Positions 14,577-35,322 of a DNA stretch of 39,613 bases are shown here, piece by piece. The notes under the pieces are model-generated. The model was not told where the DNA came from and made no database searches. It was given only the letters and a program-made list of their open reading frames with translations. The DNA comes from an uncultured Deferribacteres bacterium (lineage in GTDB: Bacteria; Zhuqueibacterota; JdFR-76; DREG01): NCBI GenBank assembly GCA_913009825.1, contig CAJVYQ010000051.1:1-39613 (forward strand), in the 5' to 3' direction. Each line of letters begins with the position of its first letter. Position 1 is the first letter of the stretch. A program made the translations under genes and the position numbers.

Positions 14577-15320
14577 TTTTTCTGATCCGTGATGATATGA
14601 CAACGGTTTCGGAACTTTCTGAAACCGATTCCGGGAATTGAAGATTGATTCGCCGAATCAATATTCTGGTCCAATTTAATTGGTTAAAGCAATTTTTAGC
14701 TTGAAACAATCACCCAACGAGTTTTGTCATTCTGCCTGCCCGGCTACAAGCGGGAAAGAATCCTGTTAGTTCTGTGCACTAAACCAACAAGATTCCTACG
14801 GAATGACATGGAAATCGATCAATGGGTGTAGAAATTATTCCACGATCTTTGGCGCTTGTGTGTATACCGCGAAGCGGCTGCACATCGCAGCCCGGAGTCA
14901 GGCGAAGCGCACCCCGGGGAAAATGCCCCCACAATTTCATACCTGAAAAGAATACAGAATCGGATAGGGTGAAAAACATGTGCAGAAGACAATTTTGTAA
15001 AATTCCTGCACCGTTTTGGGAAGTCCGTCAGTGTTTCCACACCCGTTGAGATTCCGCTGCAAATTCACCCACCCGCAAGGACATGGCATACCGCCATTCT
15101 TTCATAATTTACCAAACTGCAATTTACGTACTGGTCAGGATAAACGAACTTGCTTTGACTATTCTCCGTTCACATTTCGAAAAGGAATTGAAAATCCCCT
15201 ATTGGGCGTGTGTTCTCCGGCTTTGCCTGAACCGTTCTCATTTTTTCAATTATTCAACCCGATTTTGAAATTTTCTTCTTTGATTCCGAAAAAAAAATAT
15301 TAAATTGTAATAATTGAGGA
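14577..15320. other. Gene-free stretch upstream of the sugar locus
   Basis: No gene is supported. There are small palindromes at 14600-14637 (CGGTTTCGG...CTGAAACCG) and near 14643-14661 (TTGATTCGCCGAATCAA). The main element is a minus-oriented copy of the TGTCATTCC element (see 14725-14808). The interval 14830-15300 contains short open frames on both strands without start signals or recognisable products. Confidence 0.5.
14725..14808 (-). repeat. TGTCATTCC hairpin core element
   Basis: The inverted ends are TGTCATTC and GAATGACA. The minus-strand sequence GGAATCTTGTTGGTTTAGTG, followed by CACAGAACTAACA and GATTCTTTCCCGC, is nearly identical to the interiors of the elements at 18598-18749, 20779-20996 and 34841-34984. 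Here it lies without the ACCTGAATTGAGCG ends, which suggests that the core is an independent unit. Confidence 0.7.
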
Positions 15321-15439: not shown

Positions 15440-15659
15440 CGAAGGATGTGAATGCCCGGACAAACCGTTCGCTTTCAACTGAATATTTCATGATGTGAAA
15501 ACGTTCCGGAAGAGAGTAAATGGACGACTATCCCTCAAGAATACTGCAACATCCGGAATGAACCGAACCATGAAAAAAGCGATTCAAACCGACCAAAATG
15601 TCAGGCGAAACTGCCGGACGGAGAGATACAAATCATTAACCCCAAAAAAAGGAGTGATC

Positions 15660-17087
15660 ATGAAAAAAAGCATTTTTTTATTATCAGCCGTGATGGCCAT
15701 CAGCATGGTTTTGCCAAATCGTTCTCCCCTGTCGGCCATGGAAAACTACAAAGATGCACGCATCAAAGAGATACCGATTTCCATGCAGTGCTGGACATTC
15801 CGGAAATTCACCTTCGAAGAGACTCTGGCAAAAGTAAATGAACTGGGCATAAAATATCTGGAAGCCTATCCGGGTCAGCTACTGAGCAAATCTATGCCCG
15901 GCGCTATATTCGATCACAACATGAGTTTGTCACAGATCAAATGGGTGAAGAACCAATTGAAAAAACATGGTATCACATTGGTCAGTTACGGTGTAGTCGG
16001 TTTTGCCAACACGAAAGAGGCCACCAAAAAAGTATTCGAATTTGCCAAAAGAATGGGCATTCGCACTATTATGACCGAACCCAAAGATGACGATTTTTCA
16101 CTTCTGGACAAAATGGTGAAAAAATACGATATTCGCATCGCCATTCATAATCATCCCGTTCCTTCCAAATATGCCCATCCGGAAACCGTACTGATGCGCA
16201 TTGCCGGCTATGATGAGCGCATCGGTTCCTGTGCAGATACCGGCCACTGGATGCGTTCCGGTGTGAAACCCGTGGAAGCGCTGTTTGTCCTGCGCGGCAG
16301 AGTCTGGAATGTTCATCTGAAAGACCTCAATGAATTCGGTAACAAGCAGGCGTACGATGTGCCGTTCGGTTCCGGCAAAGCCAATATTCATGACATTTTA
16401 GCCGAATTGAGCCGGCAAAATTATTCCGGATTTCTGGCCATTGAACATGAACGCAAAGAAGATGCGATGAATCCTGTTCCTCCCATCCGAAAAGGGCTGG
16501 AGTATATTAAAAGCATTACCTATTATAAAGGGTACCAACAGATTTTAAAATCCCGGAACGGCAGGTTCAACAAACACGGCTGGAACCATTACGGTCCCGG
16601 ATATTTCATCCTGGATCAGAAAACCGGGATTCTGAAATCTCAGGGCGGCATGGGCTTATTCTGGTTCAGCGAAAAGAAATATAAAGATTTCATTCTGGAA
16701 CTGGATTTCAAATGCGCTAAAATTACCACCAATTCCGGCGTATTTCTGCGCGTACCGCAAATGCCCGTTAGCGATGATTACATCCACCACTCTTTCGAGA
16801 TCCAGATTGACGACAACAGCAAAGGCATTCATCGAACCGCCGCCGTTTACGACGCAGAAGCGCCAAAAATCAATGCCGAAAAAGCAACCGGTCAGTGGAA
16901 CCATTACAAAATCACCTTCACGGGCAGCAAGATAAAAGTGGAACTGAACGGCCAATTGGTGGTGGATTGGCAGGCCGAACCGCGCGGAAAAATCCGCGAT
17001 TTCGCACCGGCAGGCTACATCGGTCTGCAAAATCACGACAGCCGTTCACCGGTTTATTTCAGAAATGTTTATGTGAAAGAATTGTGA
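15660..17087 (+). CDS. Secreted sugar isomerase/epimerase-like TIM barrel fused to a DUF1080 (3-keto-glycoside-processing type) domain
   Basis: 475 aa from the ATG at 15660, chosen because AAGGAG lies 5 nt upstream and a signal peptide (MKKSIFLLSAVMAISMVLP) begins there; the upstream in-frame extension to 15495 has neither. Residues about 36-285 form a xylose-isomerase-like/AP-endonuclease-2 TIM barrel: QCWTFRKFTFEETL, AIHNHP, CADTGHWMRSG, VWNVHLKD and FLAIEHE, with the His/Glu/Asp metal ligands of that fold apparently kept. Residues about 300-475 form a DUF1080 (PF06439, concanavalin-like) domain: SQGGMGLFWFSEKKYKDFIL, NSGVFLRVP, FEIQIDD, WNHYKITFTGSKIKVELNGQ and IGLQNHDS. DUF1080 and sugar-isomerase-like proteins are both implicated in cleaving 3-keto-glycosides formed by Gfo/Idh/MocA dehydrogenases. 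A fusion would place two such activities on one exported chain. The exact reaction is inference. Confidence 0.9.
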   Translation: MKKSIFLLSAVMAISMVLPNRSPLSAMENYKDARIKEIPISMQCWTFRKFTFEETLAKVNELGIKYLEAYPGQLLSKSMPGAIFDHNMSLSQIKWVKNQLKKHGITLVSYGVVGFANTKEATKKVFEFAKRMGIRTIMTEPKDDDFSLLDKMVKKYDIRIAIHNHPVPSKYAHPETVLMRIAGYDERIGSCADTGHWMRSGVKPVEALFVLRGRVWNVHLKDLNEFGNKQAYDVPFGSGKANIHDILAELSRQNYSGFLAIEHERKEDAMNPVPPIRKGLEYIKSITYYKGYQQILKSRNGRFNKHGWNHYGPGYFILDQKTGILKSQGGMGLFWFSEKKYKDFILELDFKCAKITTNSGVFLRVPQMPVSDDYIHHSFEIQIDDNSKGIHRTAAVYDAEAPKINAEKATGQWNHYKITFTGSKIKVELNGQLVVDWQAEPRGKIRDFAPAGYIGLQNHDSRSPVYFRNVYVKEL

Positions 17088-17374: not shown

Positions 17375-17551
17375 GAAATTGGAAATCAAAACACTAAATT
17401 TGATCGATTGAAGATCGGGTTACCGGATCGACTTGCGGTAGCTTAAACAATTGGGAGAGATGAAGACCCCTCAGTTTTGGTAAAGACCTAAACGTCGGAA
17501 AATCGAGATAATCCGACTTTTTTTCCATCACGCTAAATGGAGATAAACACA

Positions 17552-18499
17552 ATGAAAACAAACCGCCGTAATTTCTTAAAAACTGCAGGCCTTGGCATTG
17601 CCGGATTGAATTTAACCGGTCTTATTTCAGAAAATCTGTTTGCAGCAAACGGACCGGGTGTCGCCGGGGTTGGCATGTGCGATTGGAATTTGGGTAAGAC
17701 CGCTTCGCCGGAGGCTGTCCCCAAAGCCAAAAAAGCCGGATTACAGGGAATCCAGGTCAGCGTCGGCACCGATCCGCGCAATATTCCTTTGCGGGATCAA
17801 TCAGTGCGCAGAAAATATCTGGAACTGGGCAAGCAGTACGGCATCCGGTTCCATTCTGTTGCCGCCGGCGGCATATTGAACAAGATACCTCTGGCTACGG
17901 AACCGCAATCCGCTGTTTACGTTATCGATGCCGTCGAAGCGGCTGCAGCATTGGGAGCAAAAAATATTCTCATCGCTTTTTTTGGCAACGGTGATTTAAG
18001 ACTGAGAAACAGCGAAGGGAAATTCCGCGATGTAAAAGACGGCAGGTTTTCGTCCTATGAATTAAATTCCAAACATGTAAAACGCGTTGTTGAAGCGTTG
18101 CGTCAGATTGTACCCCGCGCCGAAGATGCCGGGGTGGCTCTGGGAATTGAAAACACCATCACGGCAAAACAGAACCTGGAAATCATCGATCAGATCGGCT
18201 CCGAAATGGTGCAAGTCTATTACGACGTGGGCAACTCCTGGGGCAACGGCTACGATGTTCCCGCCGAACTGCGGATGCTCGCTAAAAACAGGATTTGTGA
18301 AGTACATCTGAAAGATTGGAAAACTCCTTTGCTGGGCAGTGCGGAAGGAATGGTGGATATGGGTCGGTGTGCCAAAGCGCTCGCCGACATCGGTTATGAT
18401 AAATGGCTGGTATTGGAAACCAGCGGACGTAAAGGTAAATTTTTTGAGGATACCAGAGCCAATGTGGCATTTGTGAAAAAGACTTTTCGTATGGGATGA
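17552..18499 (+). CDS. Tat-exported sugar phosphate isomerase/epimerase-like TIM-barrel protein
   Basis: 315 aa from the ATG at 17552; GGAG lies about 9 nt upstream, and the ATG at 17537 overlaps that site and is less likely. The N-terminus MKTNRRNFLKTAGLGIAGLN is a twin-arginine signal (RRNFLK), with cleavage near LFAAN. The remainder is an AP-endonuclease-2/xylose-isomerase-like barrel with metal-ligand segments GIENTI, VYYDVGN, EVHLKDWK and LVLETSG. The length is normal for the family. Tat export implies folding with a metal in the cytoplasm and action in the periplasm. Members act as hexulose epimerases, inositol-pathway enzymes or 3-keto-glycoside lyases; this one cannot be assigned. It lies 464 bp after the fused isomerase-DUF1080 gene on the same strand, with a repeat element between. 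Confidence 0.9.
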   Translation: MKTNRRNFLKTAGLGIAGLNLTGLISENLFAANGPGVAGVGMCDWNLGKTASPEAVPKAKKAGLQGIQVSVGTDPRNIPLRDQSVRRKYLELGKQYGIRFHSVAAGGILNKIPLATEPQSAVYVIDAVEAAAALGAKNILIAFFGNGDLRLRNSEGKFRDVKDGRFSSYELNSKHVKRVVEALRQIVPRAEDAGVALGIENTITAKQNLEIIDQIGSEMVQVYYDVGNSWGNGYDVPAELRMLAKNRICEVHLKDWKTPLLGSAEGMVDMGRCAKALADIGYDKWLVLETSGRKGKFFEDTRANVAFVKKTFRMG

Positions 18500-18597: not shown

Positions 18598-18749
18598 ACC
18601 TGAATTGAGCGATTCTCATGTCATTCCGTAGGAATCTTGTTGGTTTAGTGCACAGAACTAACAAGATTCTTTCCCGCCTGCGGTCGGGCAGGCAGAATGA
18701 CAAAACTCTTTGGGTGGTTGTTTCAAACTAAGAATCGCTCAATTTAGGA
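18598..18749 (+). repeat. ACCTGAATTGAGCG element, copy C, with 3-bp target duplication
   Basis: The ends ACCTGAATTGAGCGATTCT and AGAATCGCTCAATTTAGGA are inverted. TGG occurs on both sides (18595-18597, 18750-18752). The interior is the TGTCATTCC core also found at 14725-14808. The flanks at about 18549-18575 and 18990-19010 carry inverted copies of a CTTAGTG...CTCTGTGGCA-like sequence. Confidence 0.8.
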
Positions 18750-19231: not shown

Positions 19232-20752
19232 ATGCTGACAAAAACGGGACGAATTCTGAAAAGCAAATTATTCATCGGTTTTTTGCTGGGCATCATTACC
19301 ATTTTTTCAATCCATAAAGCAGTTGACTATACTTCCTCGGATCCATTCTGCACGTCCTGTCACATCCATCCTCATGCCACGGTTTCCTGGAAGCGCTCCA
19401 CCCATTACGACAACAGGAACGGCATTGTGGTACACTGTGTGGAATGCCATCTACCGACCGGGGGTGTAAGCTACTACACCGAAAAGATGCGCCTGGGATT
19501 GCAGGATATTTTCGGTGTAGTTTTCAAAGAACCATCTCAATTCAATTGGGATGAAAAATCACGATTGGATCATGCCGTTACCTACACCTACAAAGAATCC
19601 TGCCTGCGCTGCCATCAAAATCTGTTTCCGCTGACATTGTCAAAAAAAGGCGAAGAGGCACATCTGCATTACAGCCAGAATCCTGGCCAGATTCGATGTA
19701 TAAACTGCCATCTCTACGTCGGTCACTATTCGGAACAAGCGCAGCAAGTGGGAGCATTTGGCAAAACGGAAAAGAAACCGGCGGGAGTTTACGCCAAACC
19801 GGCCGCCATGGAAAAATTTGAAAATTTCACCGAATTCATTCCGGGTTCGCGGGTCAAATTCGATATGATTGCCATCCCCGGTGGAACTTTCAAAATGGGC
19901 AGTCCGCCATCAGAACCGTACCGGGATGAAGACGAAGGGCCGGTTCGAACCGTGCAGATCAGCCCCTTCTGGATAGGAAAGGTTGAAGTTACCTGGGATG
20001 AATACGAAGCTTTCTACCGCCAGACCGCAGCAGAAGGCAGAACCGGTACCCGCCGGATTTACGCACAAAAAGTTTCAACCCCGGACGCCATCACCGGCGC
20101 TACGCCGCCTTACGGCAATCCGGACCAGCGCTGGGGCAAGGGAGCCCGACCAGCAATTACCATGACGCACCATGCTGCCACGGTTTATTGCCGGTGGCTC
20201 TCTAAAGTGACCGGGAAAAAATATCGCCTGCCAACCGAAGCGGAATGGGAATACGCCTGCCGCGGCGGAACAGAGTCCTCCTATTTTTTCCCCGGTGATG
20301 TGAAAAAATTTACCGGTAAACGTTTCCTGAACAAAATTGTCGGCGTCGATACGGCTGTTATCAATCGCTACGTCATTTACGCGGAAAACAGCAAAGGGAA
20401 AACGGCGGAACCGTGGCAGGTTAAACCCAATCCGTGCGGACTTTTGAATATGAGCGGCAATGTGTGGGAATTTTGTTCCGATTGGTATTCTCCGCAAGCT
20501 TACGCACGCAACGCCGGCGAAAAAATAGTGGCGGACCCAACCGGGCCGAAAAAAGGAACCGGGCATGTCGTCCGCGGCGGTTCCTTCAAAAGCGATGCGG
20601 TGGATGTCCGTTCCGCCGCCCGCGATTACACCCGGCACGATGACTGGCTGGTGACCGATCCGCAAATTCCCAAAAGTATCTGGTGGTATTCGGATTGTAT
20701 CGATGTGGGTTTCCGCGTCGTATGCGAGTATGAAGGAGGAAAGATAAAGTAA
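19232..20752 (+). CDS. NapC/NrfH-like tetrahaem cytochrome fused to a SUMF1/formylglycine-generating-enzyme-like domain
   Basis: 506 aa. Residues 12-30 form a single membrane anchor. Four CxxCH motifs follow at C40 (CTSCH), C69 (CVECH), C124 (CLRCH) and C156 (CINCH), with spacing like that of NapC/NirT/NrfH membrane quinol dehydrogenases. Residues about 209-503 form a SUMF1/FGE-type domain: MIAIPGGTFKMGS, FWIGKVEVTWDEYEAF, YRLPTEAEWEYACRGG, LLNMSGNVWEFCSDWY, VVRGGSF and DVGFRVV. In sulfatase-activating FGE the catalytic cysteines lie just after the GGS(Y/F) motif; here that segment reads SDAVDVRSAARD and contains no cysteine. The domain is therefore probably not a formylglycine synthase but a structural or other-function relative. 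The protein should sit in the cytoplasmic membrane with both modules in the periplasm. It lies between Tat-exported sugar enzymes. The Shine-Dalgarno (GAAGGGA) is unusually far from the ATG, so the start is less certain. Confidence 0.88.
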   Translation: MLTKTGRILKSKLFIGFLLGIITIFSIHKAVDYTSSDPFCTSCHIHPHATVSWKRSTHYDNRNGIVVHCVECHLPTGGVSYYTEKMRLGLQDIFGVVFKEPSQFNWDEKSRLDHAVTYTYKESCLRCHQNLFPLTLSKKGEEAHLHYSQNPGQIRCINCHLYVGHYSEQAQQVGAFGKTEKKPAGVYAKPAAMEKFENFTEFIPGSRVKFDMIAIPGGTFKMGSPPSEPYRDEDEGPVRTVQISPFWIGKVEVTWDEYEAFYRQTAAEGRTGTRRIYAQKVSTPDAITGATPPYGNPDQRWGKGARPAITMTHHAATVYCRWLSKVTGKKYRLPTEAEWEYACRGGTESSYFFPGDVKKFTGKRFLNKIVGVDTAVINRYVIYAENSKGKTAEPWQVKPNPCGLLNMSGNVWEFCSDWYSPQAYARNAGEKIVADPTGPKKGTGHVVRGGSFKSDAVDVRSAARDYTRHDDWLVTDPQIPKSIWWYSDCIDVGFRVVCEYEGGKIK

Positions 20753-20778: not shown

Positions 20779-20996
20779 ACCTGAATTGAGCGATTCTAAT
20801 GTCATTCCGTAGGAATCTTGTTGGTTTAGTGCACAGAACTAACATGATTCTTTCCCGCCTGCGGCGGGCGAAAGCAGCCTGCCCGCCGCAGGCGGGGAAT
20901 CCGATAAAATCACAAACTTATAGATTCCCGCTCCCCACTTTTGTGAGGACAAGCTTCGCGGGAATGGCAGAAAAGTGGAGTTTTCGGACAGACACT
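20779..20996 (+). repeat. Composite palindromic element, copy D
   Basis: It starts like the ACCTGAATTGAGCG family and continues with the TGTCATTCCGTAGGAATC core and a large GC-rich palindrome (CCGCCTGCGGCGGGC with CCCGCCGCAGGCGGG). It ends TTTTCGGACAGACACT, the terminus of the AGTGTCTGAAC family. It is a chimera of two families, probably from one element inserting into the other or from recombination. It fills the gap before the Gfo/Idh/MocA gene. Confidence 0.65.
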
Positions 20997-21078: not shown

Positions 21079-22422
21079 ATGAAAGACGAAAAATCAACCT
21101 TAAACCGGCGTCAATTTTTGGGTACCGCCACGGCCGCAGGAGCCATCGGCGCGGTGGGAATCGGCGCTATGATGAACTCCTGCGGCAAACCGGCGGTGGA
21201 TTTAAAATTACCTCCGCTTTTAGATGTGGCGCCCGACGGACCCGAATTGACGGCGGGACTGGTCGGCTGCGGCGGCCGCGGCACGGGAGCGGCGGCCCAA
21301 TTTCTCAGCGCCGGCCCCAATCTAAAGATCATCGCCCTGGCCGACGTTTTCCGGGACCGGCTGGATTCCTGTCGTCAGAGATTAACCGATAAGCCTGGTT
21401 TTGAAGTGACCAATGAGAATTGCTTCATCGGCTTCGACGCTTACAGGAAATTGATCGATTCCGGCGTGGATGTGGTTTTACTGGCAACGCCCCCCCATTT
21501 CCGGCCGGAGCATTTTGCCGCGGCCATCAAAGCGCGCAAACATGTTTTTATGGAAAAACCGGTCGCCGTAGATCCGGTCGGCGCCCGCTCTGTTATGAGC
21601 ACCGCCAAAAAAGCGGACGCCGCCGGCTTGTCCGTTGTCACCGGCACACAGAGACGTCATCAACGGGATTACATTGAAACCTTCAAACGCGTCGCCGGCG
21701 GCGAAATCGGCGAGATTGTTTCCGCCAACTGTTACTGGAACGGCGGGCAGCTTTGGTACAAAACGCAGCAATCCGGCTGGTCGGATATGGAATATATGAT
21801 CCGCGATTGGGTGAACTGGTGCTGGCTTTCCGGCGATCACATTGTTGAGCAGCATGTGCACAACTTAGATGTTATCAACTGGTTCACCGGAAAACATCCG
21901 GTAAAGACAGTGGGTTTCGGTGGACGGCACCGGCGCGTCACCGGCGATCAGTATGATTTCTTCAGTGTTGATTATGTTTTTGACGACAGCAAACATCTGC
22001 ACAGCATGTGCCGGCAGATCGATGGTTGTGCGAACAATGTTTCGGAATTTATCATGGGCACAAAAGGCCATTCAAATTGCAGAAACACTATCTGGAAACC
22101 GGACGGTTCCGTGAGATGGAACTACCCCTATTTGAAAGACGACAAAGGGAAAACGCACCTGAAAGTAGGGCCATATTTTCAGGAACATATCGATCTGGTC
22201 ACCGCCATTCGCACTAACAAACCGGTCGATTACGCAGAGAATACGGCCATTTCCACATTAGTAGCGATTATGGGACGCATTTCCGCCTATACCGGCAAGG
22301 AGATCACCTGGGATGAAATGATGAAATCCGGTCTGCGTCTGGGTCCGACAGAGTACGCGCTCGGCCCTGTCGATATGAAAGCCGTACCGCCTACGCCCGG
22401 GACGGAAAAAAGAAGAAGTTGA
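21079..22422 (+). CDS. Tat-exported Gfo/Idh/MocA-family oxidoreductase
   Basis: 447 aa. The N-terminal twin-arginine signal is LNRRQFLGTATAAGAIGAVG. A Cys in MMNSCGK near residue 36 could make it a lipoprotein. The Rossmann fold starts at about 59 (GLVGCGGRGTGAAAQFL), with LADVFRDRL after strand 2 and FMEKPVAVD, the family's EKP catalytic segment, near residue 155. The catalytic His motif is GDHIVEQHVHNLDVINWF, and the C-terminal half is the usual open-sheet substrate domain. These enzymes oxidise or reduce sugar hydroxyls with tightly bound or diffusible NAD(P). Exported members are common in Planctomycetes, Verrucomicrobia and FCB bacteria, and several make 3-keto-glycosides. Genomic proximity to exported isomerase-like and DUF1080 proteins suggests that it starts such a pathway. 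The start is supported by AAGGAG upstream. Confidence 0.92.
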   Translation: MKDEKSTLNRRQFLGTATAAGAIGAVGIGAMMNSCGKPAVDLKLPPLLDVAPDGPELTAGLVGCGGRGTGAAAQFLSAGPNLKIIALADVFRDRLDSCRQRLTDKPGFEVTNENCFIGFDAYRKLIDSGVDVVLLATPPHFRPEHFAAAIKARKHVFMEKPVAVDPVGARSVMSTAKKADAAGLSVVTGTQRRHQRDYIETFKRVAGGEIGEIVSANCYWNGGQLWYKTQQSGWSDMEYMIRDWVNWCWLSGDHIVEQHVHNLDVINWFTGKHPVKTVGFGGRHRRVTGDQYDFFSVDYVFDDSKHLHSMCRQIDGCANNVSEFIMGTKGHSNCRNTIWKPDGSVRWNYPYLKDDKGKTHLKVGPYFQEHIDLVTAIRTNKPVDYAENTAISTLVAIMGRISAYTGKEITWDEMMKSGLRLGPTEYALGPVDMKAVPPTPGTEKRRS

Positions 22423-22987: not shown

Positions 22988-24052
22988 TTGAACACATCTT
23001 TCCAACCCGATTATCGCCACATGCTGGATGTGCTCCGCAACAAACGTCCCGGCCGTTTGCCGGTTTACGAGCACATCATCAGTCCTGTCATCATGGAAGA
23101 GATTCTGCATACCCCATTTGCCGAACAGATACAGGGCAATGAGAGCGATATGAAAGAATTTTTCCGTCAGTATTGCCGCTTTTTCCGGGAGATGACGTAC
23201 GACACCGTTTCTTTTGAAATTTGCATCACCGATATTTTACCGGATCACGGCGCAATTATGGGCGGCAGGCCGGGACCGGTTCAAAACCGGGAAGATTTTG
23301 CAAAATATCCCTGGGACGAATTGCCGGAAATCTATTGGCAAGTTGCCGAACCGGGATTCGATTTGCTCTGTGAGCAGCTTCCGGCCGGCATGAAAGCGCT
23401 GGGCGGCGTGGGCAACGGCGTTCTGGAAATCAGCGAGGATCTGGTTGGTTTCGAATATCTCTGTTACATGCTGGCGGACGATCCCGAACTATTCGCAAAC
23501 CTCTATGAGAAAATCGGCCATCTGATGACAACGATCTGGCGACGTTTTCTTGCTAAATATAGTGAACATTATGCCGTCTGCCGCTTCGGCGATGATCTTG
23601 GTTTCAAAACCAGTACTCTGCTCCGGCCGGATACAATCCGCAACTACATCGTTCCCCAGTACAAAAAAATCGTTGATCTGATCCATGCGCATCAAAAGCC
23701 GTTTTTGTGGCACTCATGCGGCAATATTTTTGCCGTCATGGAAGATATAATTGCCATCGGCATCGACGCAAAGCATTCCAACGAAGATATTATCGCACCA
23801 TTCGAAAAATGGATTTCTCTTTACGGCGATCGCATCGGTCTGCTGGGCGGCATTGATGTGAATATTTTGTGCAATTTTAAGCCGGACGAAATCAGGGAAA
23901 AAGTATTCGCGGCAGGGCAAAATTTTCGCCGGCCGGCAAACGGGTACGCCCTCGGCTCCGGGAACTCCATCCCAGACTATATCCCGGTTGACGGCTACCT
24001 CGCCATGATCGAGGCGGCGCAGAGAATCAGGGAAAAAGAGAGAAAACAATAA
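22988..24052 (+). CDS. Uroporphyrinogen decarboxylase (URO-D) superfamily protein
   Basis: 354 aa with a probable TTG start at 22988, supported by AGGAG (22978-22982) five bases upstream; the next in-frame ATG would cut 11 conserved-looking residues. The whole length is a URO-D/methylcobamide:CoM-methyltransferase-like barrel. The segment LWHSCGN near residue 240 keeps the His-x-Cys zinc pair of the MtaA/MtbA branch, but at the position expected for the third ligand the sequence is LGSGNSIPDYIP without Cys. That argues against a classical corrinoid methyltransferase and matches a poorly characterised URO-D branch. No haem-biosynthesis genes are nearby, so true HemE is unlikely. A RACo-like protein occurs at 28346-30199, but no corrinoid-binding protein is in the window. 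No signal peptide; cytoplasmic. Confidence 0.85.
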   Translation: MNTSFQPDYRHMLDVLRNKRPGRLPVYEHIISPVIMEEILHTPFAEQIQGNESDMKEFFRQYCRFFREMTYDTVSFEICITDILPDHGAIMGGRPGPVQNREDFAKYPWDELPEIYWQVAEPGFDLLCEQLPAGMKALGGVGNGVLEISEDLVGFEYLCYMLADDPELFANLYEKIGHLMTTIWRRFLAKYSEHYAVCRFGDDLGFKTSTLLRPDTIRNYIVPQYKKIVDLIHAHQKPFLWHSCGNIFAVMEDIIAIGIDAKHSNEDIIAPFEKWISLYGDRIGLLGGIDVNILCNFKPDEIREKVFAAGQNFRRPANGYALGSGNSIPDYIPVDGYLAMIEAAQRIREKERKQ

Positions 24053-24216: not shown

Positions 24217-24303
24217 CAGACTAAGTTATTCAGATCAGGGCCAGTCGATTCGGCGAATCGCTTACACGACTGCAAAAACAAAATTAAGAGAGGAGAGAGA
24301 CAG

Positions 24304-25691
<1,388 letters not shown>

Positions 25692-28345: not shown

Positions 28346-30199
28346 ATGAACCAGGAAGATAAAAACGGCATAAACGTCTTTTTACCCCAATATAATCGCA
28401 CTCTGCATCTGCGCACCGGTGAAAATTTAATGGAGCTTTTTCAGCGGGAGGGGTTTTTTGTCCCTTCCGATTGCGCCGGCGCCGGTACCTGCGGTAAATG
28501 CCGGGTTCAATTATTCAGCGCCCAAATGCCGGTATCGGAATCAGACCGCAATTTTCTAAGTTCGGATCAGATAAATGCCGGCATTCGCCTGGCCTGCCGG
28601 TTTGTGCCGGAGTCTGATTGCCGGGTTGAATTTCTTATTACGGAAGAACCGGATTCGGATGTGATCTTAACGGAAGGTCGCCGGCAGCGGATCGACATTC
28701 AACCACGGATCAAAAGGAAAGAGCTGTCTATCCAAAAACCGGAACTCGGGCAGGATCAATTTGATCTTGAATCCATTGTGCAGGCGTTGCATAGCGGCTC
28801 TGCACAACCACATGCATCTCTCTCGTTCCTGGAAAAAATAGCGGTTAAATTGCGCGACAACGATTATCAGATTTCTCTCATTTACAATGACAGCCATTAC
28901 ATCGAAATTGAACCGATCAGCGCGCCGGATGCAGCTTACGGTTTGGCTATCGATCTGGGCACGACCACATTGGTTGTAAAGTTGATCGATCTGAACACCG
29001 GCGCAGTGAAAGCTGTAGCATCCGCTGTGAACCCGCAGCAGCAGGTAGGCGCCGATGTGATTTCCCGCATCGGTTATTCACAACAGAAAAAAAATGCTTT
29101 TAAACAATTGCAAAAATTAGTCATCGATCAGTTGAACGTCATGATTGGTACTGTGTCTGTTTCCGCCGGTATTTCCGCCAAAAAGATTTATGACGTGGTA
29201 ATTGCCGGCAACACCGTGATGGGCCATCTGCTGCTGGGATTGGATGCAACTCATCTCGCCCTGTCGCCCTTCACGCCGGTTGTCAAGTTTTATCCGTTGT
29301 TTCATGCGGAGGAGATTAAATTGTCGGTGCATCCCCGCGCCGGTGTTTATCTGCTGCCCAATATCGGCAGGTTTGTGGGCGGCGATACGACGGGCGTTAT
29401 TTTAGCCACCGGCCCGGATCAGAAAGAGAAACCGACGTTGCTGATCGATATCGGCACTAACGGTGAAATTGTTTTGGGTAACCGGAATCGGATTCTGGCT
29501 ACCTCAACCGCTGCCGGGCCTGCCTTTGAAGGCGCCAAGATCCGCTTTGGCATGCGGGCATCTCAGGGCGCCATCGATCGAGTAGCAGTGCAAGACGGCG
29601 AGCTGCAATTTCATACGGTCGAAAACGCACCGGCAAAGGGCATTTGCGGTTCGGGCATCATCTGTTTAATTGGCGAACTGCTGCACGCCGGCGTTTTGTC
29701 GTGGAGCGGGCAACTATTGTCCCGGGAGGAGCAAAAAGATGGAAGTCCGGCCTTACTGAACAAAACCGGCGAGGAAAATCGGCAGCGCATATTTCTTTTG
29801 GATGAATCGGTCAACGGGCGCGTCTTTTTGACACAACGGGATGTGCGGGAAATTCAACTGGCCAAAAGCGCTATCCGTACCGGCATAAATCTGTTGCTTA
29901 ATGAATTTGGTGTGGAAATTGATCAGGTCGACCGGATTTTGCTTGCCGGCGCTTTCGGTAATTTTTTGGACCGGGAACAGGCAATCCGTATCGGTTTGCT
30001 GCCGGATGTAGACGTGGAAAAAATCCGTTTTATCGGGAATGCCGCCTGTGCCGGAGCAGAACTGGCTTTGCTTTCCAAAAAGATGCGGCAGCGGGCGAAA
30101 GAAATTGCCGAAAAAACAAAATATTTCGAAATTGCCACCCATCCAAATTTTAATGATGAATACGCGGAAAACATGCTGTTTCCTGTAAACGGGCGATAG
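28346..30199 (+). CDS. RACo-like protein: 2Fe-2S ferredoxin domain plus ASKHA ATPase domain (DUF4445 family)
   Basis: 617 aa. Residues about 8-95 are a 2Fe-2S ferredoxin domain with C43, C49, C52 (DCAGAGTCGKC) and C84 (RLACRF). After a linker, residues about 195-600 form an ASKHA-type ATPase: AIDLGTTTLVVKLIDL, VNPQQQVGADVISRIGY, VIAGNTVMGHLLLG, PTLLIDIGTNGEIVLGN, ATSTAAGPAFEGA, GICGSGIICL, LLAGAFGNF and GNAACAGAELAL. Relatives (RACo, RamA-like activators) use ATP to reduce the cobalt of inactivated corrinoid proteins to Co(I). The corrinoid partner is not in this window. The URO-D superfamily gene 4.3 kb upstream is a possible functional partner, but unrelated genes lie between them. No obvious Shine-Dalgarno; cytoplasmic. 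Confidence 0.9.
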   Translation: MNQEDKNGINVFLPQYNRTLHLRTGENLMELFQREGFFVPSDCAGAGTCGKCRVQLFSAQMPVSESDRNFLSSDQINAGIRLACRFVPESDCRVEFLITEEPDSDVILTEGRRQRIDIQPRIKRKELSIQKPELGQDQFDLESIVQALHSGSAQPHASLSFLEKIAVKLRDNDYQISLIYNDSHYIEIEPISAPDAAYGLAIDLGTTTLVVKLIDLNTGAVKAVASAVNPQQQVGADVISRIGYSQQKKNAFKQLQKLVIDQLNVMIGTVSVSAGISAKKIYDVVIAGNTVMGHLLLGLDATHLALSPFTPVVKFYPLFHAEEIKLSVHPRAGVYLLPNIGRFVGGDTTGVILATGPDQKEKPTLLIDIGTNGEIVLGNRNRILATSTAAGPAFEGAKIRFGMRASQGAIDRVAVQDGELQFHTVENAPAKGICGSGIICLIGELLHAGVLSWSGQLLSREEQKDGSPALLNKTGEENRQRIFLLDESVNGRVFLTQRDVREIQLAKSAIRTGINLLLNEFGVEIDQVDRILLAGAFGNFLDREQAIRIGLLPDVDVEKIRFIGNAACAGAELALLSKKMRQRAKEIAEKTKYFEIATHPNFNDEYAENMLFPVNGR

Positions 30200-34628: not shown

Positions 34629-35322
34629 AAGCGCATATCCTCAACAAAACGAAAGAAACTTACAGTTGTGACAGCAATGGTAAGCTGGTTGAAACGATCA
34701 GACAAGTGTGGAATATTGCCACTAACAATTGGGCAAATGCGCAGCAGATTCTTTATACTTACCATACTGATGATCTTTACCGGGAGTTGATAAAAAGCTG
34801 GGCAGGAATAGAATATATAAATGAAACAAGGGTTACTTATACCTGAATTGAGCGATTCTAATGTCATTCCGTAGGAATCTTGTTGGTTTAGCGCACAGAA
34901 CTAACAAGATTCTTTCCCGCCTGTGCGGATAGGCGGGCGGTTCGTCGGGCAGGCGGAATGACATTAGAATCGCTCAATTCAGGTTATGGTTATGGTCCGT
35001 CAACTTTTGTTGAAGATGGCAATGATTTTGAACTCTTTACCTGATAGAATTTTCATTATCCAACTATCCCAATCCCTTCAATCCGGAAACGACCATTCAG
35101 TTTAATTTGCCGGAAACAGGCAAGCTACGTATTGCCATTTATGACCTGAAAGGCGCTTTAGTGAAGACCCTGTCGGCCGGGAAAATTTGGCTGGCAGGCT
35201 CGCACCAGGTGATTGGGAACGGTTTGAACCGGCAAAATCTTCCCGCGCCGTCCGGCGTATATGTTTATCGTTTGCAATCGAACAAAATTACGCTCTCAGG
35301 GAAGTGCACTCTTATTCGCTGA
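34629..35322 (+). pseudogene. Degenerate secreted-protein gene with type IX/FlgD-like C-terminal domain, interrupted by a palindromic element
   Basis: From 34629 the frame reads YSCDSNGKLVETIRQVWN, then NWANAQQILYTYH. This is a repeat style known from secreted FCB proteins (YTYD-x-NG-x-L...W...NW). It runs into the element at 34841-34984, which brings a TGA. Removing the element plus one TAT joins INETRVTY to GYGPSTFVEDGNDFELFT in frame. A TGA then ends the frame at 35042-35044. A sorting domain continues in another frame from 35041: EFSLSNYPNPFNPETT, LRIAIYDLKGALVKTL and SGVYVYRLQS, ending at 35322. The gene therefore has an insertion, a frameshift or stop, and no visible 5' end. No catalytic domain remains. 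Confidence 0.75.
34841..34984. repeat. ACCTGAATTGAGCG element, copy F, inserted in a coding frame
   Basis: 144 bp with about 31-bp perfect inverted ends (ACCTGAATTGAGCGATTCTA, continuing ATGTCATTCCG). TAT is duplicated on both sides (34838-34840, 34985-34987). The interior is the GGAATCTTGTTGGTTTAG core. The near-complete palindrome and intact ends suggest the youngest copy in the window. Confidence 0.9.

Follow-up and report, generated by a model that had tools for sequence, protein, structure and literature searches.

The window that we analysed, a stretch of 39,613 nucleotides from an uncultured Deferribacteres bacterium, carries an open reading frame of 506 residues with an ATG start (19232..20752, + strand), supported by the ORF call and by 92 full-length relatives. 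Pfam searches placed two domains in this single frame: a tetrahaem Cytochrom_NNT domain of the NapC/NirT type (PF03264, E 9.2e-29; residues 11-166; 19262..19729, +) and an FGE/SUMF1/PvdO-like domain (FGE-sulfatase, PF03781, E 4.9e-48; residues 211-469; 19862..20638, +). An AF2 model of the fusion (mean pLDDT 77.5) began with a helix and gave an FGE fold that was confident over most of its length, with pLDDT values under 50 in the linker at residues 164-183 and in a loop at residues 267-294. The helix (residues 2-34; 19235..19333, +) aligns with the anchor region of NrfH and was assigned as a membrane anchor. An earlier note on this DNA, made from its letters alone, had described a tetrahaem domain joined in frame to a SUMF1-type fold, with four CxxCH motifs and a membrane anchor, and these descriptions were borne out.

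Upstream of the fusion gene lie genes for a protein that combines AP_endonuc_2 with a 3-keto-disaccharide hydrolase (DUF1080) domain (15495..17087, +) and for a Tat-type AP_endonuc_2 (xylose-isomerase-like) protein (17537..18499, +); members of the protein cluster of the latter are also upstream of the fusion in four other loci. Downstream is a gene for a Gfo/Idh/MocA dehydrogenase with a Tat signal and a lipobox-like Cys (21079..22422, +). A dispersed intergenic repeat with the core CCGTAGGAATCTTGTTGG was found in the window at 14779-14807, 18620-18648, 20801-20829 and 34863-34891, two of these copies flanking the fusion gene; the genome holds 55 exact copies of the core, versus none of the reversed control. 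Further downstream, a URO-D/MtaA-like methyltransferase gene (22988-24052) and a RACo/AcsV-like corrinoid activase gene (28346-30199) suggested a corrinoid-dependent demethylation system, and a tyrosine phenol-lyase-like gene (about 24300-25691) changes frame and has an in-frame TAG in its early part, as expected of a pseudogene or an assembly error.

The fusion is a conserved family across several bacterial phyla. Its 92 full-length relatives, at about 50-65% identity, come from Bacteroidota, KSB1, Latescibacterota, Zixibacteria, Gemmatimonadota and Calditrichia. A scan of genome contigs gave 80 fusion loci, with matching records labelled Bacteroidales/Bacteroidia, Prolixibacteraceae, KSB1, Latescibacterota, Zixibacteriota, Gemmatimonadota, Longimicrobiales and Calditrichia, and a search for relatives added 13 genomes besides the source genome. 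Cultured species that carry it include Saccharicrinis aurantiacus and Labilibacter marinus. The earlier note had allowed that the fusion might be confined to one assembly, with a frame break at its junction; it recurs in 92 loci and the junction is unbroken. A chimera, a frameshift or a chance product of assembly was ruled out by these unbroken relatives and by the presence of the fusion in 23 of the 82 genomes of the source phylum, always as a single copy. Pairwise distances of the haem half and the FGE half were correlated (Spearman 0.86 over 79 loci, a value to which shared species history adds), consistent with one old fusion that has been inherited as a unit. The copies in loci L094 and L141 (genomes G052 and G069) each had one internal TAA in the match and are possibly decaying or misassembled. 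No account of the fusion was found in the literature searched on the fusion and the 3-keto-glycoside pathway.

The haem half has the motifs C40TSCH44 (19349..19363, +), C69VECH73 (19436..19450, +), C124LRCH128 (19601..19615, +) and C156INCH160 (19697..19711, +), and in the family alignment all four, together with H46, H58, H144 and H165, were invariant or nearly so. A K85-x6-D92 element (19484..19507, +), invariant in 92/92 members, is the counterpart of the K-x6-D of NrfH, whose Lys and Asp we take to be the quinol-site residues K82 and D89. The first haem motif, with the invariant H46, reads PFCTSCHIH in the fusion and PFCTSCHIM in NrfH (aligned with 2j7a), such that the Met of the NrfH-type CxxCHxM is replaced by His in all 92 relatives. 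In NrfH this Met binds the quinol-facing haem, with Asp on the distal side (PMC8840924), and the His of CxxCHxH may be the ligand of haem 1 in its place. Because K85 and D92 match the NrfH quinol site and are invariant, their sequence makes it likely that the NapC domain performs quinone chemistry, with His where NrfH has Met.

The same domain might instead work in the quinol-driven direction, in which it would oxidise quinol so that the FGE domain or the dehydrogenase reduces a periplasmic substrate, such as a keto sugar. By established potentials, menaquinol is not a strong enough reductant for NAD+ or for most keto sugars. In favour of this direction, the NapC/NrfH proteins known so far act as quinol dehydrogenases (PMC8840924), but CymA, from the same family, is capable of both quinol oxidation and quinone reduction (PMC6295460), showing that the family can run backwards. 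We consider the quinol-driven direction improbable.

In the FGE half, GGSFKSDAVDVR (20576..20611, +) stands where FGE reads GGSYxCxxxxC. In an alignment that included the human C336S mutant, S454 aligned with the human catalytic C336 and V459 with C341. Both of the catalytic copper cysteines were absent in 92/92 relatives, position 454 being Ser in 91 and position 459 Val in 65 and Leu in 21; thus the loss that the earlier note had read from one sequence was found throughout the family, and alignment did not recover the cysteines. Their absence rules out FGE formylglycine chemistry in the fusion. The same note was wrong in stating that no cysteine follows GGSF, as C489 and C498 sit in WWYSDCIDVGFRVVC and are kept in 81 and 80 of the 92 members, respectively, although they are not the copper-binding catalytic pair of FGE. 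The only strongly conserved cysteines of the domain are C320, C415, C489 and C498, and the correlated losses of C320 and C498 among the relatives suggested a structural disulfide. We saw no His-type metal site in the FGE domain that is invariant across the family.

These features bear directly on whether the fusion could be an anaerobic, quinone-coupled FGE that matures sulfatases. The source genome does have 16 sulfatase-family matches, but it also has an anSME-type radical SAM enzyme that scores above the curated cut-off, and the predicted location of the FGE domain is on the periplasmic side. No sulfatase was found on the contig of the window, in agreement with the earlier note, or among the scanned neighbour clusters of the fusion loci. 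With the cysteines absent, an anSME present and no linkage to sulfatases, sulfatase maturation by the fusion was rejected, and we regard its probability as close to nil. The source genome has only one other FGE-like domain, which also lacks the cysteine pair; it is C-terminal in an 897-residue protein (L135:454-3147, contig C39 of G000).

The top solved structure for the FGE half in Foldseek searches was PvdO (5hha, E 1.2e-18, TM 0.77 by target), followed by FGE, and a viral structure library returned generic FGE-domain matches only. The fusion scored 97.3 bits against the PvdO equivalog NF051459 (cut-off 500) and 58.6 bits against the EgtB equivalog (cut-off 360), had no match to the DinB iron domain, and was likewise far under the NCBIfam cut-offs for SenA and GldK; membership of PvdO or of EgtB/OvoA/SenA was therefore rejected. 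PvdO is a periplasmic oxidoreductase of the FGE fold in which no cofactor is detectable and which may depend on a partner for electron transport (PMC6206403). Given that the best structural match is an oxidoreductase, the word "inactive", which the earlier note had applied to the fold, was too strong, and another activity is possible. A family motif, TDPQxPKSxWWYSD (residues 475-488; 20654..20695, +), is near-invariant and located in the segment downstream of the lost-cysteine positions.

Such observations raise the possibility that a PvdO-like dehydrogenase activity resides in the FGE-like domain, which would act on a sugar, or on a product of one, and feed electrons to the fused haems, while the Gfo/Idh/MocA enzyme would perform a separate redox-neutral or later step. 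It is common for a catalytic domain to be joined to a quinone-linked cytochrome of its own, and the structural match and the near-invariant motif are also in its favour. The lack of an invariant His-type metal site and the disulfide suggested for C320 and C498 speak against it, and the catalytic basis of PvdO is itself unsettled. We view the PvdO-like dehydrogenase as an unlikely explanation, if one to be taken seriously.

Ordered neighbour maps showed a same-strand Gfo/Idh/MocA gene downstream of the fusion in 83 of the 92 loci. The two genes overlap in 15 of these, are 0-60 bp apart in 50, 61-500 bp apart in 17 and 2.9 kb apart in one. Five of the nine loci that lack the dehydrogenase stop no more than about 0.4 kb from the fusion, two of them with a partial Gfo gene; L091 and L093 are short, and in their genomes Gfo lies about 3 kb beyond; L023 leaves 1.5 kb of space, and L077 is the only locus with ample room and no Gfo. 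Across the 82 genomes of the phylum, with Gfo counted at 57% or more, both genes were present in 21, the fusion only in two, Gfo only in one and neither in 58. The fusion-only genomes are G043, where a contig end cuts the Gfo gene (locus L086), and G076, where the fusion is at a contig edge, and the Gfo-only genome, G012, has an orphan that is 65% identical and has lost the lipobox Cys. The co-occurrence with Gfo/Idh/MocA and DUF1080 genes that the earlier note had envisaged was found, the association with Gfo being the stronger.

A twin-arginine motif followed by Cys was present in the signal region of 77 of 79 full-length partners. The partner in the window has the Rossmann GxGxxG, the EKP lysine and the C-terminal domain of Gfo/Idh/MocA enzymes, and GxGxxG, EKP and a GDHIVEQHVHN region are invariant among partners. 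Its model resembles inositol dehydrogenases, DgpA and glucose-fructose oxidoreductase (GFOR), and it scored 38.2 bits against the BT_2158 equivalog NF058561 (cut-off 750). Among relatives of this enzyme, D3dgpA holds NAD(H) tightly and oxidises glycosides at C3 by a ping-pong mechanism (PMC11239390), and BT2158 is a periplasmic glycoside 3-dehydrogenase of the Gfo/Idh/MocA type (PMC11300592).

The near-perfect pairing with one Gfo subfamily also speaks against a purely structural function, in which the FGE fold would be only a C-type-lectin-like platform for docking or glycan binding and the tetrahaem domain would serve other periplasmic reductases. PorK/GldK, which the domain matches in sequence and structure, are a precedent for structural use of the fold, but the neighbourhoods have no recurring reductase gene, and we give the platform a slim chance.

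The typical gene order in Bacteroidota was fusion, Gfo, a second Tat-type Gfo (54 loci), ThuA (46), glycosyltransferase 2 (49) and a large TPR protein (49). Hydrolysis of 3-keto-glycosides is a known or proposed activity of DUF1080 proteins (PMC9007349), and together the ThuA, DUF1080 and xylose-isomerase-like neighbours point to 3-keto-sugar chemistry. Since many of the Bacteroidota operons run on into glycosyltransferase and membrane TPR genes, a biosynthetic role is possible.

Relatives of the FGE half also occur without haems. G048, G053 and G057 encode an FGE protein that has the C-terminal motif of the fusion and likewise lacks the catalytic cysteines, clustered with a 49%-identical Gfo and AP_endonuc_2 and, in part, with DUF1080-like genes. 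In G035 the FGE-only protein is altered at its C-terminus and the Gfo is truncated. Close variants of TDPQxPKSxWWYSD were found in FGE-only relatives, some of which have a Sec-type signal, and multihaem cytochromes are encoded near the FGE-only loci L103 and L104. As FGE-only proteins are encoded near related Gfo genes, the association of FGE with Gfo is independent of the NapC fusion. Conversely, related Gfo clades with no FGE gene nearby were found in G001, G016, G043 and G049, indicating that the pair is younger or narrower than this Gfo family. What looked like a fusion of AP_endonuc_2 with FGE in L104 was rejected because it spans a run of N. One FGE-only relative and a truncated Gfo share their cluster with a GMC oxidoreductase and a gluconate-2-dehydrogenase subunit 3 (L106:5214-7661).

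We propose that the fusion is the membrane-anchored, quinone-coupled partner subunit of the exported Gfo/Idh/MocA sugar dehydrogenase, an explanation that we consider to have an even chance of being correct. The dehydrogenase would fold around its NAD(P) in the cytoplasm, be exported by Tat and receive a lipid anchor. Its periplasmic substrate would be a sugar or a glycoside, oxidised, as by related enzymes, probably at C3. The Cys-less FGE fold would dock the dehydrogenase and may supply a PvdO-like step from hydride to single electrons. The four haems would then carry electrons to the K85/D92 site, where menaquinone would accept them, and the keto sugar would be processed by the neighbouring DUF1080, ThuA and xylose-isomerase-like proteins. 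We infer the formation of the complex, the direction of the electrons, the substrate and the hydride-to-haem step; for the last of these the FGE domain would be the only part suitably placed, unless it only docks. The earlier note had suggested that an exported dehydrogenase is docked to the quinone pool: the link to a dehydrogenase was strongly supported by the 83 of 92 loci and by co-occurrence in genomes, and the link to quinone is read from the two invariant residues.

An exported Gfo that lacks a free NAD pool must either run in a redox-neutral manner or have its NADH reoxidised on site, and the latter is favoured by its almost constant pairing with a tetrahaem protein of the quinone type. 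From established potentials, the transfer of electrons from sugar to menaquinone is downhill. Several points weigh against a quinone-coupled partner subunit. No flavin or other converter of hydride to single electrons was visible, and NADH does not give electrons directly to haem. The usual NapC direction, from quinol to an acceptor, is the opposite of that proposed, and the redox-neutral cycles of Gfo/Idh/MocA enzymes (GH109, GFOR and DgpA) need no external acceptor. In addition, there are the Gfo clades that lack an FGE domain, the Gfo of G012 that lacks the fusion, and the Bacteroidota operons whose continuation would allow a biosynthetic role. A more specific form of our proposal, a new type of respiratory sugar dehydrogenase in which an exported Gfo retains NAD(H) and the quinone pool takes up the electrons of its bound NADH by way of a Cys-less FGE domain, a hitherto unknown hydride-to-electron module fused to a NapC tetrahaem, is put forward as a tentative and rather doubtful idea.

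Many bacteria export NAD-dependent Gfo/Idh/MocA enzymes although the periplasm has no free NAD(H) pool, which raises the question of how net oxidation can be kept up there. The fusion family is a concrete and widely conserved candidate for a link to the quinone pool. It further suggests that, beyond sulfatase maturation, the FGE fold can serve in redox reactions or docking. The conserved two-gene unit of fusion and Gfo is real, with a hypothetical mechanism and a plausible role that can be tested with the two genes.

The unit appears to be built as a variant of known parts. With NrfH (NapC/NirT family, PDB 2j7a) the fusion shares a single N-terminal anchor, four haems and the K-x6-D quinol-site residues, but it has CxxCHxH in place of CxxCHxM, an attached FGE-like domain, and Gfo/Idh/MocA rather than NrfA as partner. 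PvdO (PDB 5hha), a dihydropyoverdine dehydrogenase, is the best structural match of the FGE-like domain and has the same predicted periplasmic site, whereas the fusion has a haem domain, a different genomic context and 97 bits against the NCBIfam cut-off of 500. FGE (SUMF1) has in common with the fusion its fold and the GNVWE and GGS motifs, but not the two catalytic cysteines, gone in all 92 members, or the linkage to sulfatases. The partner resembles the BT2158/DgpA glycoside 3-dehydrogenases in family, fold, EKP motif and nearby 3-keto-sugar genes, and its predicted site is periplasmic, like that of BT2158; it differs in its distance from the BT_2158 equivalog cut-off (38 versus 750 bits) and in its linkage to a haem-FGE protein. 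Finally, the lactose 3-dehydrogenase LacABC of Caulobacter shares the idea of periplasmic sugar oxidation at C3 and the presence of DUF1080 hydrolases nearby. LacABC is a three-component dehydrogenase, a GMC flavoprotein with cytochrome c, in contrast to the NAD-dependent Gfo plus NapC-FGE protein here.
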